From positions 21,456 to 85,455 of the forward strand of contig JADFZU010000006.1 of assembly GCA_015232365.1 (NCBI GenBank): a stretch of DNA of 64,000 nucleotides, given 5' to 3'. Shown here in pieces: positions 38,542 through 43,961 of the stretch. A program made the position numbers and the translations under genes. Source of the DNA: Magnetococcales bacterium. Its GTDB lineage: Bacteria; Pseudomonadota; Magnetococcia; Magnetococcales; JADFYX01. The notes beneath the pieces were generated by a model that was given only the letters and a program-made list of their open reading frames with translations, had not been told where the DNA came from and made no database searches. Each line of letters starts with the position of its first letter. Position 1 is the stretch's first letter.

Positions 38542-39990
38542 ATGTTGTTTAATTCAAGCGTATTTTTTATATTCATCGCCATTTTTTTTCTATTTTGGCC
38601 CTTAGCCAAACAGAAGAAAAATCTCCGTTTTGCCTATCTTATAACCGCATCTTTCTTTTTTTATGGCTGGTGGGATTACCGCTTCCTGTTTTTGATTATA
38701 GCTAGTGGTCTTCTCGATTACCTGTTGGCTTTTAGGATAGCTAAAAGCAGTAGTCTGCCAAAAAAACGTTTTTTTCTTTTTGCCTCACTGCTTGGCAATA
38801 TTGGCTCTTTAGCATGTTTTAAATATCTCGGATTTTTTGCCGAAAACCTTAGCCTGCTGCTGGCAGGAGTCGGCATTGAGGCATCTCTCCATGAGAACAT
38901 TCCAGCATTTATGTTGATACTGCCAATTGGTATAAGTTTTTATACCTTTCAATCAATGAGTTACACCATAGATGTCTATTTTGGCCGTATCAAGCCAACT
39001 GATAATATCCTGCACTTTTTTGCTTATCTGGCGATGTTCCCCCAACTGGTTGCTGGCCCTATTCTCAGAGCGAAAGATATTCTTCCCCAGCTTCTGGTCA
39101 ACCGGAGTATAAGCGAAGCCGAAAGATGGTCGGCTCTCCAGAGGGTGGTTTTCGGCTTTTTCAAAAAGGTGGTTATAGCAGATAATCTAGCACCAATTGT
39201 CGCCGCCGGTTTTGCTTCAGATCCTGACAGTGGTACCGGTCTTTACTGGTGGTTTATAGTTACTGCGTTTGCAGTGCAGATCTACTGTGATTTCAGCGGC
39301 TACAGTGATATTGCTATTGGGATTGCCAAATGGATGGGTTATGACTTCAAGACCAACTTCAACCATCCATACATAAGCAGGTCTTTACGTGAGTTCTGGA
39401 CCAGATGGCACATATCCCTCTCAAGCTGGTTTCGAGACTATCTCTACATTCCGTTAGGGGGAAGCAGCAGAGGCTCCTGGCACAGTTATATAAATCTATT
39501 TGTGGTTTTTATCATCTCCGGTTTTTGGCATGGAGCAGCATGGAACTTTATTGTCTGGGGTATGTTGCATGGCCTGTTTCTCTCATTAGAGCGTTTAAGT
39601 GGTTGGCCTGGAAGGATAAGTGGCTGGTGGGGTGGAGGTCTGCTGGCAACAATTCTGGTTATTATCCAGGTCTGGATCGGTTGGGTGTTTTTCAGGTCTG
39701 AAAGTTTTTCACAGGCCGTGGATATTCTAACCATGATGTTTACTCTTCAAGGCGGGCTGAGTTTTGGCGGCGTGGGTCTATCTATCTCTTGGCAACATCT
39801 CCAGGTTGGCGGGTTAACCATGGCCATCATATTTTTTCGTGAGTTATATGTGGGTTATAGTGAAAGGAGCGGTAAAAGCTGGACTATTTTGGAGAGCAGA
39901 GTGTTCGGCCCGCTTTTTCTAGCGGTTTTGATTGTGGTCTCTATTTTTTTTAGGGGGGCTGGCGATGAGTTTATCTATTTTCAATTTTAG
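38542..39990 (+). CDS. MBOAT-family O-acyltransferase (AlgI-like)
   Basis: A polytopic membrane enzyme that moves acyl groups, usually acetyl, to extracytoplasmic glycans. The 482 residues have about 11 hydrophobic segments. Signatures: FYGWWDYRFLFLI at the start, GISFYTFQSMSYTIDVYFG, FPQLVAGPILR, FSGYSDIAIGIAKWMGY, the REFWTRWHISLSSWFRDYLYIPLGG block, and the catalytic-His region SGFWHGAAWNFIVWG (His near 330), with a second His near 343. This is the AlgI/PatA type. It is followed by an SGNH-like partner. The glycan substrate is unknown. Confidence 0.93.
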   Translation: MLFNSSVFFIFIAIFFLFWPLAKQKKNLRFAYLITASFFFYGWWDYRFLFLIIASGLLDYLLAFRIAKSSSLPKKRFFLFASLLGNIGSLACFKYLGFFAENLSLLLAGVGIEASLHENIPAFMLILPIGISFYTFQSMSYTIDVYFGRIKPTDNILHFFAYLAMFPQLVAGPILRAKDILPQLLVNRSISEAERWSALQRVVFGFFKKVVIADNLAPIVAAGFASDPDSGTGLYWWFIVTAFAVQIYCDFSGYSDIAIGIAKWMGYDFKTNFNHPYISRSLREFWTRWHISLSSWFRDYLYIPLGGSSRGSWHSYINLFVVFIISGFWHGAAWNFIVWGMLHGLFLSLERLSGWPGRISGWWGGGLLATILVIIQVWIGWVFFRSESFSQAVDILTMMFTLQGGLSFGGVGLSISWQHLQVGGLTMAIIFFRELYVGYSERSGKSWTILESRVFGPLFLAVLIVVSIFFRGAGDEFIYFQF

Positions 39991-40010
39991 AAAGGCCAGG
40001 TCAATAAATA

Positions 40011-40940
40011 ATGATCATTTTTAAGGAGCGATTGATCCTGACCTTGCTACTGTTTACCGGTTTGATGTTTGTAACTGTTTACATTATCAAACCGCAGCCG
40101 GTATGGGGCAGCAAACACTATCTTTTTTATAAAAAGAAATTAAACGCCCCGCCCATACACAATATAGTAATTGCCGGTGACTCCAGGGTTCTGCGGGATC
40201 TATCTCCATTAGAACTTGGTAAAGAGGTAGGGTTAGATTATAAAATAACCAATTTTGGGTTCTCTTTTACCGGGCTCAACCCTTTAATGTATCCAGAAAT
40301 TGAGAAAAAACTTATTGGTGACGGCTCTTTTAGGATGATTTTAATTGGTGTTGGGCCAAGAATGTTTCTTGAATCCCTATCTGGAAATCCGGAGATGGTT
40401 AGCTACCGGGAGGCGTCCTGGTTTAAGGTGTTAACCGCCCAACTCGACAAATATCTAACACCTACCAGCTTTGACTTGGCTTTTAAAAACATAAAAAGTG
40501 CATGGTCTGGAACTCCTAGGCATGGGTTTTTTGAGGAGGAGCGTGAAAATGGCTGGCTGGCAGGTTGGCGGTATCCCCTTGATGAAAACCGGGCTGAGGA
40601 GTTCTATCTAAATACCTTTAAAAAGGAGAAGGTCTCCAATACAATAATAGATGCTACCTTCAGACAGTTAAGAGCATGGCGGCAAAAAGGGATTAGGGTG
40701 GTAGGCTTTCGCCCACCTGTAAGCCCAAGGATATATCAGATTGAGCAGCAGTTGAGTAATTTTGATGAGATGGATTTTGTCGCAAAGTGGCGGGCCAATG
40801 GCGGAGATTGGCTAGATATGCCTATGGCCGGCTACAAAACATATGATGGCAGCCACCTTGAAGTGGAGTCGGCTATTAAGTTTAGCAGAGCCATCGGGCT
40901 TCGTTTAAAACAGGAACAACTTCTAGGTCCCTGGTTTTGA
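40011..40940 (+). CDS. SGNH-like membrane-anchored protein paired with the MBOAT gene
   Basis: A 309-residue protein with one N-terminal membrane anchor (about 8-25) and an extracytoplasmic domain. It contains IAGDSRVLRDL (GDS at 56-58) near the start and YDGSHLEV (Asp 279, His 282) near the end. This is the Ser/Asp-His layout of AlgJ/AlgX-like or SGNH hydrolase folds, though the overall match is loose. Such proteins complete the acyl transfer begun by an MBOAT partner. It lies 20 bases downstream of the MBOAT gene, so the two very likely act together. Confidence 0.72.
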   Translation: MIIFKERLILTLLLFTGLMFVTVYIIKPQPVWGSKHYLFYKKKLNAPPIHNIVIAGDSRVLRDLSPLELGKEVGLDYKITNFGFSFTGLNPLMYPEIEKKLIGDGSFRMILIGVGPRMFLESLSGNPEMVSYREASWFKVLTAQLDKYLTPTSFDLAFKNIKSAWSGTPRHGFFEEERENGWLAGWRYPLDENRAEEFYLNTFKKEKVSNTIIDATFRQLRAWRQKGIRVVGFRPPVSPRIYQIEQQLSNFDEMDFVAKWRANGGDWLDMPMAGYKTYDGSHLEVESAIKFSRAIGLRLKQEQLLGPWF

Positions 40941-41075: not shown

Positions 41076-41492
41076 ATGGCAATTATTCGTATATTAGACG
41101 CTGCTCCGGGGATGGTTTTAGCTGCCGATGCTCAAGATATGAGCGGTCGTATGCTCCTTGGTGCTGGTAAGGAGATCACAGCCAAGCATTTAAAAACATT
41201 TAGAACCTGGGGTGTAACTGAGATTGATGTCCAGGATTCGGCAGAAGGGGAAAAGAGGGCTGCTGTTGATACAAAGGCTGATGAGAGTGTCACAAAACAG
41301 GCCCAAGAACATTTTTGCCAGAACGACCTCGGTAACCCGTTGATTGCAGAGCTGTTTAATAACTGTATTGTCCAAATGCAAAAACAGCCACAGAAAAAAT
41401 CTTCAGTAAAACCTGAGGCTGATAAAAAGCCTGCACGCCGCCAACTACCACAAAGCTCCAGAGGACAGGTATCTCGCTATGGCCGTCGTTGA
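41076..41492 (+). CDS. Small cytoplasmic protein with a DUF3391-like N-terminal segment
   Basis: A 138-residue soluble protein. Residues 1-53 (RILDAAPGMVLAADAQDMSGRMLLGAGKEIT...WGVTEIDVQ) match the short beta-rich module often found before HD-GYP or HDOD domains. The rest is Lys/Gln-rich and low in complexity, with a very basic C-terminus (RGQVSRYGRR). A GGAG ribosome binding site lies 9 bases before the ATG. Its end overlaps the HDOD gene by 14 bases, so translation is coupled. It probably acts as an accessory to the HDOD protein; its exact role is unknown. Confidence 0.75.
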   Translation: MAIIRILDAAPGMVLAADAQDMSGRMLLGAGKEITAKHLKTFRTWGVTEIDVQDSAEGEKRAAVDTKADESVTKQAQEHFCQNDLGNPLIAELFNNCIVQMQKQPQKKSSVKPEADKKPARRQLPQSSRGQVSRYGRR

Positions 41493-42324
41493 TTTAGATA
41501 GTATAATTGATTCTGAAAGCCAGATAGCCTCATTTCCAGCTATCGTTCCCCGTATTCACAAAGCGGTTGATGACCCCCGTGGGTCTATGGATACTGTTGG
41601 TAGAATCATCACTGAAGATCCAGCACTATCGGCCCGCCTGCTTAAAGTAGCCAACAGTTCGTTTTATACCAGCCCTTTTCCGGTAAAGTCCATCTCCAGG
41701 GCGTTGACCATGATTGGCACCAAGCAGCTCAAGGATCTGGTGACAGCTATCTATACTGTTAAAATGTGCTCAAAATATGCAAGAAAACAGATAGATATGG
41801 ACTCCTTTTGGCGGCACAGCATAGCTTGTGGCGTTGCAGCAAGGGTAATCGCTACTGCAAAACGGATTATGAATACTGAGCGGTTCTATCTGGCTGGTCT
41901 GCTACATGATGTTGGCCATTTGATTATCTATACCAAGTTGGTAAAACATACTGAAGAGCTATCGAAAAGATGCAATCTTGGTAAAGAGCCTGTTTATAAA
42001 TTAGAGCGTGAGCTATTGGGTTTTGACCATGCAGAGGTTGGTGGACGACTGCTAAAAAAGTGGCAGCTACCTGATGAACTGGTTGGCCCGGTTATGTACC
42101 ACCACACCCCATCACAAGCTCCGGACTTTCAAATGGAGACAGCAATAATCCATGTTGCTGAAATTGTAGCATCTAGTATGCTTTATAGTAGTCGAATTGA
42201 AACCAAAGTACCACCACTAGACCCAGCAGCATGGGATCTGATAGGTACACCTCTAAGTGCAGTGCCAACTATTCTTGAACAGGTTAAGGTGCAGTTTGAG
42301 GATGCTGTGAAGATGTTTTCATAA
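41479..42324 (+). CDS. HDOD-domain signalling protein
   Basis: A 281-residue protein that is essentially one HDOD domain. Signatures: ITEDPALSARLLKVANSSFY, ISRALTMIGTKQLKDLV and LAGLLHDVGHLIIYTKL, followed by HAEVGGRLLKKWQLPDELVGPVMYHH. The HD-like motif is partly retained, but HDOD proteins usually lack phosphohydrolase activity and serve as scaffolds in signalling and stress regulation. It sits between the small DUF3391-like protein (14-base overlap) and a class III cyclase (8-base gap), suggesting one output module. Confidence 0.88.
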   Translation: MAVVDLDSIIDSESQIASFPAIVPRIHKAVDDPRGSMDTVGRIITEDPALSARLLKVANSSFYTSPFPVKSISRALTMIGTKQLKDLVTAIYTVKMCSKYARKQIDMDSFWRHSIACGVAARVIATAKRIMNTERFYLAGLLHDVGHLIIYTKLVKHTEELSKRCNLGKEPVYKLERELLGFDHAEVGGRLLKKWQLPDELVGPVMYHHTPSQAPDFQMETAIIHVAEIVASSMLYSSRIETKVPPLDPAAWDLIGTPLSAVPTILEQVKVQFEDAVKMFS

Positions 42325-42332
42325 GGCAGCTC

Positions 42333-43961
42333 ATGAGCAGTGAAAATGTTGGTAAATCATCCAAGCTCGAAGAGCGGATTGAGTTTCTAGAGGTTGCCAA
42401 TCGGCAGCACGCGTTTACCATGGAGCTGGCTGCCTCCATGGTCCATTTTCATGGCAGGCTCAGCCACACCCGTGACATCAATTCCATACTTGAAGAGTCG
42501 CAAAAATTTCTAAGGCGGCTGCTCTTTGATTTTAAGGCAATGGCCTATTTCACTGTGGATGAAGAAGATGCCAGCTTCCACTTGGTAATGTGTTCCCCAG
42601 ATGATAAATCTGCAGAGATTCAAGGTCTGGGTGATATGTTAATTGATTCTGGTGAGTTTGCCTGGGCTTTAAATCAGCATCGTGGTTTGATAACCCAAAG
42701 TAAATTTTGGGGGCACTCGGTATTTCTACACCAATTAGCCACTGATGATCGTATTCGGGGGATGTTTGTGGGAGTTGTCAATCTTGGTGGCGAGGTAATT
42801 TCCAACTCATTTCTTGACCTTTTTTCCATTGTTTTTCGTAACACTGCCTATGCTCTAGAGAGTGCAGAGTTATACCGGATGCTAGACGATCACAACAAAA
42901 ATCTAGAGGCCCGTGTTGATCAACGCACCGCTGAGTTGAATGCTGCAAACAGTGATTTAGAGAAGGCCAACCTTTTTGTTCGCAATACTTTTGGCCGTTA
43001 TATGTCTGATGAGGTGGTTGCCTCAATTTTGGATACGCCAGAAGGTACAGCTCTTGGTGGAGAGCGTAAAGAGGTCACGGTTTTGATGAGTGATCTTAGG
43101 GGATTTACGGCACTTAGTGAAAAGCTGGACTCTCAAGAGGTTGTTACCATCTTGAACATGTATCTTGAAGTAATGACCGAGATAATTCTAAAATATTACG
43201 GCACAATCATTGAGTTTCTCGGTGATGGCATTCTGGTCATCTTTGGTGCACCAATCACCCGTAGCGAAGATGCTACAAATGCGGTGGCTTGTGCGCTGGA
43301 GATGCAGCTTGCCATGCCGATTGTAAACGCCAGAAACCGGCAAGGTGGCCACCCTGATCTTGCCATGGGCATCGGCATTAATACCGGGGCTGTTGTTGCT
43401 GGTAATATTGGTTCAGAAAAACGCAGCAAATACGGTGTAGTTGGCTCCGCAATCAACTTTGCCGCCCGGATAGAGTCATCAACTATTGGTGGTCAGCTTT
43501 TGATCTCAGAGAGCACCAAGCAAAAGTGTGGTTCAATGTTGAGGATTGATGATATTCTTGAAATTCAACCAAAGGGTATTTCCAATAGCGTAAATATCTA
43601 TAATATCGGAGCCATTGGCGGAGAGTATAATATTACCCTGCCGGAGCCGATTGCTGATGGTTTTCAATCCATACCATCAGGAGTGACAGTTGAATTTGTA
43701 ATTTTAAAAAATAAAAATGCTGGCTCCATGAATCTTACTGGTCAAATAGTTGGTTTGACAAAAAAATCGGCTAAAATCAAAAGTGATGCTAAATTAGAGA
43801 AGCTGCAAAACCTGAAACTGGCTCTATATAACAGTGGTACTGAAATTACTCGGGAGCTATTTGGCAAGGTAGTTGGTGTAGCAGACAAAGAGATTGTAGT
43901 TGCCTTAACAGCTATTCCAGATAGTGCAGCAAGGTTTTTCAAAGAGGTTCTCTCAAACTAG
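42333..43961 (+). CDS. Class III nucleotidyl cyclase with N-terminal sensor region and C-terminal PilZ-like domain
   Basis: A 542-residue soluble protein. Residues ~10-185 form a GAF-like sensor; a coiled-coil linker runs ~185-220. The cyclase domain (~235-420) has metal-binding Asp253 (MSDLRGFT) and Asp298 (EFLGDGI), plus the NxxxR helix INFAARIES. The base-selecting positions are Glu294, where adenylyl cyclases have Lys, and Gly368, where they have Asp or Thr; this points to GTP. The last ~100 residues (VEFVILKNKNAGSMN ... FKEVLSN) resemble a PilZ-type beta barrel but lack an obvious RxxxR. It follows the HDOD gene by 8 bases. A REP-like hairpin ends the unit. Confidence 0.85.
   Translation: MSSENVGKSSKLEERIEFLEVANRQHAFTMELAASMVHFHGRLSHTRDINSILEESQKFLRRLLFDFKAMAYFTVDEEDASFHLVMCSPDDKSAEIQGLGDMLIDSGEFAWALNQHRGLITQSKFWGHSVFLHQLATDDRIRGMFVGVVNLGGEVISNSFLDLFSIVFRNTAYALESAELYRMLDDHNKNLEARVDQRTAELNAANSDLEKANLFVRNTFGRYMSDEVVASILDTPEGTALGGERKEVTVLMSDLRGFTALSEKLDSQEVVTILNMYLEVMTEIILKYYGTIIEFLGDGILVIFGAPITRSEDATNAVACALEMQLAMPIVNARNRQGGHPDLAMGIGINTGAVVAGNIGSEKRSKYGVVGSAINFAARIESSTIGGQLLISESTKQKCGSMLRIDDILEIQPKGISNSVNIYNIGAIGGEYNITLPEPIADGFQSIPSGVTVEFVILKNKNAGSMNLTGQIVGLTKKSAKIKSDAKLEKLQNLKLALYNSGTEITRELFGKVVGVADKEIVVALTAIPDSAARFFKEVLSN

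Follow-up and report, generated by a model that had tools for sequence, protein, structure and literature searches.

Gene organization at the locus

The window, i.e., the whole stretch of 64,000 nucleotides analyzed, belongs to an assembly of 2.84 Mb (103 contigs, 83 % complete), and its nearest relatives are found among the Magnetococcales, with the best match in a genome of the same genus (G004). Three genes arranged in tandem, the third of which encodes the cyclase, and the features of the latter are as follows:

41076..41492, + strand: p138, a 138-aa protein and the first gene of the operon; found in the same place in several Magnetococcales genomes
41479..42324, + strand: HDOD-domain protein, 281 aa; Pfam HDOD (E 1.1e-61), gene order kept in relatives
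42333..43961, + strand: predicted GAF–guanylyl cyclase–PilZ-like protein, 542 aa; open reading frame and domain searches
42465..42872, + strand: predicted GAF-like sensor domain, residues ~45-180; AF2, Foldseek and a weak Pfam GAF_3 match
42990..43001, + strand: FGRY motif of the cyclase transducer element (CTE), residues 220-223; conserved in homologues
43068..43607, + strand: class III nucleotidyl cyclase catalytic domain, residues ~246-425; Pfam and phmmer
43212..43214, + strand: codon of Glu294, purine-specificity residue (position of Cya2 E488); alignment
43434..43436, + strand: codon of Gly368, second specificity residue (Gly in Cya2); alignment
43668..43958, + strand: predicted degenerate PilZ-like domain, residues ~446-542 (~95 residues); AF2, Foldseek and sub-threshold Pfam

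The p138 and HDOD genes overlap by 14 bases, an 8-base gap precedes the cyclase gene, and a convergent chorismate synthase gene comes thereafter. Of the two neighbours named in a first-pass annotation of this DNA, the HDOD protein is real. The other, p138, had been termed DUF3391-like; NCBIfam relates it only weakly (E 0.042) to the C-terminal end of an HD-GYP-type protein, and the Pfam scan of p138 gave no match, so that the resemblance holds but not the assignment to this family. An MBOAT O-acyltransferase gene and the 309-aa gene behind it, for which Pfam gave no match (38542-40940 of the window), were not seen adjoining the p138–HDOD operon in the relatives examined.

The order p138, HDOD and GAF sensor gene is conserved across several Magnetococcales genomes. 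In other families of this order, the gene following p138 and HDOD encodes a histidine kinase, often a hybrid one, with an N-terminus homologous to that of the window cyclase (~40-54 % identity), whereas the cyclase cassette stands in place of this kinase output in G004 and the window. A more fitting description of the locus is that of a conserved sensor operon, the histidine-kinase output of which was swapped for a guanylyl cyclase cassette. Two further genomes of the same genus (L051, L057) retain the kinase, which is followed by a gene for a cyclase with tail of the REC-cassette lineage. A paralogue in the host genome (L039) shares the architecture of the window cyclase, but has neither p138 nor HDOD as neighbour.

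Catalytic domain and purine specificity

Little is understood of cyclic GMP signalling in bacteria, where the number of characterized guanylyl cyclases is small. The open reading frame at 42333-43961, proposed to encode a class III cyclase, indeed does so: Pfam Guanylate_cyc covers residues 246-398 (E 9e-27), and the catalytic set of this class is complete, comprising the metal-binding residues Asp254 and Asp298 as well as the transition-state residues Asn375 and Arg379. Best solved relatives in the phmmer search are 2w01 (E 6.3e-60) and 6fht (E 2.2e-70), which we take, partly after PMC5995499, to be the catalytic domain of Cya2 from Synechocystis PCC 6803 and a phytochrome fusion built on Cya2, respectively.

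The identity of the two specificity residues could be confirmed, since in the family alignment Glu294 and Gly368 share columns with Glu/Gly of Cya2 (2w01) and with Lys/Thr of CyaB (3r5g). The first-pass annotation had noted that guanylyl cyclases display a Glu-containing pair of this kind, and the Glu-Gly pair is also that of Cya2, a proven guanylyl cyclase (PMC4215837). Exchange of the corresponding glutamate in Cya2 (E488K) switches specificity to ATP, i.e., yields an adenylyl cyclase (PMC5995499), and flipping by a single exchange marks this residue as decisive. Among homologous cassettes, Glu is present at position 294 in 100 of 114 and the Glu-Gly pair in 78 of 114, such that the residues of the window protein do not reflect chance. 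The host genome encodes three cyclases with a tail, displaying Glu-Gly (window protein and L002) or Glu-Ser (L039), and these are its only cyclases with Glu at the specificity site; tail-less cyclase domains mostly have Lys-Thr or Lys-Asp, one has Asp-Thr and a divergent one carries Asn. By homology to Cya2, the nearest solved relative with the same pair, GTP-type specificity is well supported, and the window enzyme very probably forms cyclic GMP from GTP.

Cya2 and the window protein further share the FGRY transducer element and a homologous C-terminal extension, but differ in several respects. Cya2 possesses a membrane CHASE2 sensor rather than a soluble GAF-like one, and the window gene has HDOD and p138 genes upstream instead of a neighbouring phosphodiesterase gene. 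In addition, the Tyr preceding the catalytic Arg, which enhances guanylyl cyclase activity of Cya2 (PMC4215837), is replaced by Ala378. Since only 10 of 114 homologues have Tyr at this position, the residue is no hallmark of the family at large.

The N-terminal sensor matches Pfam GAF_3 only below threshold (E 0.0065). Its AF2 model (pLDDT 86) yielded 38 Foldseek matches at E <= 0.001, mostly to GAF and GAF-like folds, suggesting a GAF fold. A coiled coil with the FGRY motif of the transducer element (described in PMC5995499) links the sensor to the cyclase; conservation among the 114 homologues is high for F220 and G221 (109 each) as well as R222 (100).

The host genome also contains a 717-aa frame (G000:C83; L007:241-2391, L179:702-2852) with two cyclase domains, the first of which has Val at one of the metal-Asp positions and may thus represent a catalytically dead partner.

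The C-terminal tail and the Cya2 extension

A PilZ-like tail had been proposed from the sequence, and structure prediction agrees with this fold. The AF2 model of the tail, obtained from residues 434-542 together with 42 homologues, reached a pLDDT of 88.6, and its Foldseek matches in the PDB at ranks 1-23 are PilZ or PilZ-containing proteins except for one uncharacterised Legionella protein (probability 1.00, E 5e-4 to 0.08, TM ~0.6). The likeness in predicted fold thus extends to PilZ domains of the Alg44, BcsA/CesA, YcgR and MapZ type.

Sequence-based signals are weak. The window protein itself has no Pfam PilZ match in the scan. Weak or sub-threshold PilZ matches were obtained with 3 of 42 homologue tails and, in a second set, with 17 of 68 (2 of 68 for the next family); the best of them has an E-value of 0.0005, and none of those inspected reaches the Pfam cut-off. 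Comparison of the tail profile with true PilZ domains gave p-values of 0.0024 (wide set) and 0.07 (narrow set), with controls at 0.09-0.15. A search by sequence for a solved structure of a tail relative returned no credible match. PilZ matches by structure alongside weak signals by sequence point to a fold that is likely PilZ and to a sequence that has drifted far; this assignment depends mainly on predicted structure, with modest Foldseek E-values.

Unlike canonical PilZ domains, the tail forms part of a cyclase in the homologues collected, and the window tail lacks both c-di-GMP-binding motifs, RxxxR and [D/N]xSxxG. Among 113 homologue tails, RxxxR is present in 5 and [D/N]xSxxG in 2, and the two never occur together, while the same patterns do detect both motifs in five extra PilZ domains of another Magnetococcales genus. 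The tail hence looks like a PilZ domain that lost its c-di-GMP-binding residues. Cross-talk with c-di-GMP, which had been considered plausible from the PilZ likeness, is consequently unsupported for the window protein, and binding of c-di-GMP by its tail was rejected on account of the two missing motifs. Most conserved in the tail are instead K461 (97 %), G470, N493 (95 %), K512 (100 %) and T526 (95 %).

Two homologues from Desulfobacterales/Desulfococcaceae (L119:4858-7446, L137:1038-3563) have a REC domain nested in the PilZ-like barrel, within the hairpin before the last strand, and carry an Ala-Asp specificity pair.

The tail is also encountered in the cyanobacterial lineage of Cya2. A narrow tail profile, built only from tails of Pseudomonadota (mostly Magnetococcales), matches the C-terminal extension (residues 633-738) of the cyanobacterial protein L142 with an E-value of 3.9e-14, and the narrow and the wider-set profile can be aligned along their full extent (E 2.5e-41). 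L142 is 97 % identical to the Cya2 catalytic domain and represents a close orthologue rather than the PCC 6803 protein itself. Etzl and colleagues described the 118-residue extension of Cya2 as "structurally uncharacterized" and needed for substantial activity: its removal nearly abolished activity, and its inclusion altered the dynamics in the linker–CTE region (PMC5995499). Based on the profile match, we infer that the Cya2 extension is the same PilZ-like domain acting in cis, and the tail may be read as a built-in PilZ-like activator, since the extension is uncharacterized and yet required for activity. The activating role is transferred from Cya2 in artificial phytochrome fusions, where truncation could simply have destabilized the enzyme. 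Literature searches in an open-access library turned up no report of a guanylyl cyclase, or of Cya2, with a PilZ domain.

Cassette family and proposed mode of action

A scan of GTDB genomes retrieved at least 556 related stretches, named examples of which come from at least five phyla (Pseudomonadota, Thermodesulfobacteriota, Cyanobacteriota, Spirochaetota and Nitrospirota). The transducer, the cyclase and the tail form a single unit, a cassette that is combined with varied sensors, the N-terminal partners being REC, GAF, CHASE2, dCache, HAMP, FIST, a flavodiiron-type lactamase domain, or histidine kinase plus REC. The cassette tree places the window cassette among REC-GAF cassettes.

In about a dozen of 80 named loci, mostly from Desulfobacterales, a predicted Apyc1-like metallo-beta-lactamase phosphodiesterase is encoded directly downstream of the cassette (e.g., L063, L064, L069, L079, L085, L087, L101, L112), as is the case for the four closest Cya2 orthologues (L142-L145). 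An Apyc1-like phosphodiesterase is also fused to the cassette in a Nitrospirae protein (L104:5020-7800), and a metallophosphoesterase in a Mariprofundus protein (L138:1104-3329); in two relatives from the phylum of the window, a metallophosphoesterase gene adjoins the cassette (L033:671-1459, L034:596-1384). Such pairing of synthesis and degradation, by fusion or adjacency, supports a cyclic-nucleotide role of the cassette. No phosphodiesterase gene lies beside the window gene, and the search for Apyc1-like proteins elsewhere in the host genome gave sub-threshold partial matches only, so that it yielded no partner phosphodiesterase.

Taken together, the window protein is well supported as a new member of the Cya2-type guanylyl cyclases, the tail of which is reinterpreted for the family, and probably acts as a soluble, sensor-regulated enzyme with a degenerate PilZ-like tail operating in cis. 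The GAF-like N-terminal domain would read a cue, perhaps helped by the co-encoded HDOD protein and p138, and the signal would pass through coiled coil and FGRY transducer element to the cyclase homodimer. The latter would convert GTP to cyclic GMP, with guanine accommodated by Glu294 and Gly368, while the PilZ-like barrel most likely acts on the linker/transducer region, keeping the cyclase productive as the Cya2 extension appears to do. Some of the numerous cyclic-nucleotide-binding proteins encoded in the genome would then serve as cyclic GMP receptors. A search for cGMP-binding proteins, suggested along with the initial proposal, gave 30 CNB-domain matches (besides 9 PilZ and 3 HDOD matches), although a preference of these domains for cGMP is not readable from sequence, the patterns of the CNB phosphate cassette being too weak to separate cGMP from cAMP binders.

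Use of ATP, alone or alongside GTP, despite the Glu-Gly pair is an improbable alternative. Ala378 in place of the Tyr of Cya2 makes dual use conceivable, and Cya2 was reported to discriminate through turnover rather than affinity (PMC4284465). However, the window cyclase lacks the adenine-selecting Lys, which most other cyclases of the host genome keep whereas the family mostly has Glu at this site, and the effect of E488K in Cya2 equally argues for GTP. The tail, in turn, could still serve as receptor for a nucleotide or another small molecule at a non-canonical site, coupling a second signal (c-di-GMP or other) to cGMP synthesis. We regard this as unlikely: the near-invariant polar or charged residues K461, N493, K512 and T526 could line a pocket, but could equally contact the cyclase; the nested REC domains mentioned above demonstrate that the tail can take input, and in another Magnetococcales genus the cassette has gained a motif-complete PilZ domain, but the window tail has no RxxxR, the two motifs are rare and never combined in the homologue tails, and the sequence search provided no solved relative.

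As to the origin of the operon, direct collapse of a two-component system, i.e., fusion by deletion at this locus of the histidine kinase with a downstream REC-cyclase, is suggested by the gene order in L051 and L057, where the p138–HDOD–histidine kinase operon is directly followed by a gene of the REC–cyclase–tail type. The window cassette derives from a different lineage, however, and grouping of the fused with the adjacent cassettes is rejected in the cassette tree (p-AU 7e-13), rendering such a same-locus fusion highly improbable. Swapping-in from another cassette paralogue fits better.

The guanylyl cyclase preferred here resembles the XC_0250/XC_0249 pathway of Xanthomonas campestris in that a class III guanylyl cyclase is involved, there with cGMP feeding c-di-GMP control (PMC3770947). 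XC_0250 differs in lacking the Asn-Arg pair and in its linkage to tetratricopeptide repeats, and the link to c-di-GMP proceeds via a separate CNB-GGDEF receptor (PMC3770947).

The analysis thereby provides a signature in sequence and fold for a large set of likely guanylyl cyclases, together with a candidate identity for the activity-giving Cya2 extension, which is relevant to red-light optogenetic cyclases; the neighbours of the cassette point to predicted partner phosphodiesterases. Equating "PilZ-like" with c-di-GMP binding is corrected. One may tentatively speculate further, at somewhat less than even chance, that bacterial guanylyl cyclases took up the PilZ fold as an allosteric component that is fixed and binds no ligand (explaining the Cya2 extension), that the cassette constitutes a general bacterial output unit for cGMP across many phyla, and that one Magnetococcales genus re-attached a motif-complete PilZ domain, giving direct control by c-di-GMP.

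The proteins of that genus are five in number (L013:1081-2775, L015:1351-3069, L022:1039-2775, L024:1357-3096, L025:1039-3291). In each, the degenerate tail is followed by a second PilZ domain with RxxxR and DFSLDG, recognized by Pfam in the two scanned (E 1.9e-7 and 2.6e-6), and the specificity positions are occupied by Asn-Thr. Control of a class III cyclase by c-di-GMP is more likely to be found in these proteins than in the window gene, and such cross-talk seems plausible for them.

Two frames of the host genome (G000:C14:33076-34449, G000:C81:10760-12148) have both cNMP-binding matches and partial matches to Apyc1-like lactamases and possibly represent cyclic-nucleotide-regulated hydrolases.
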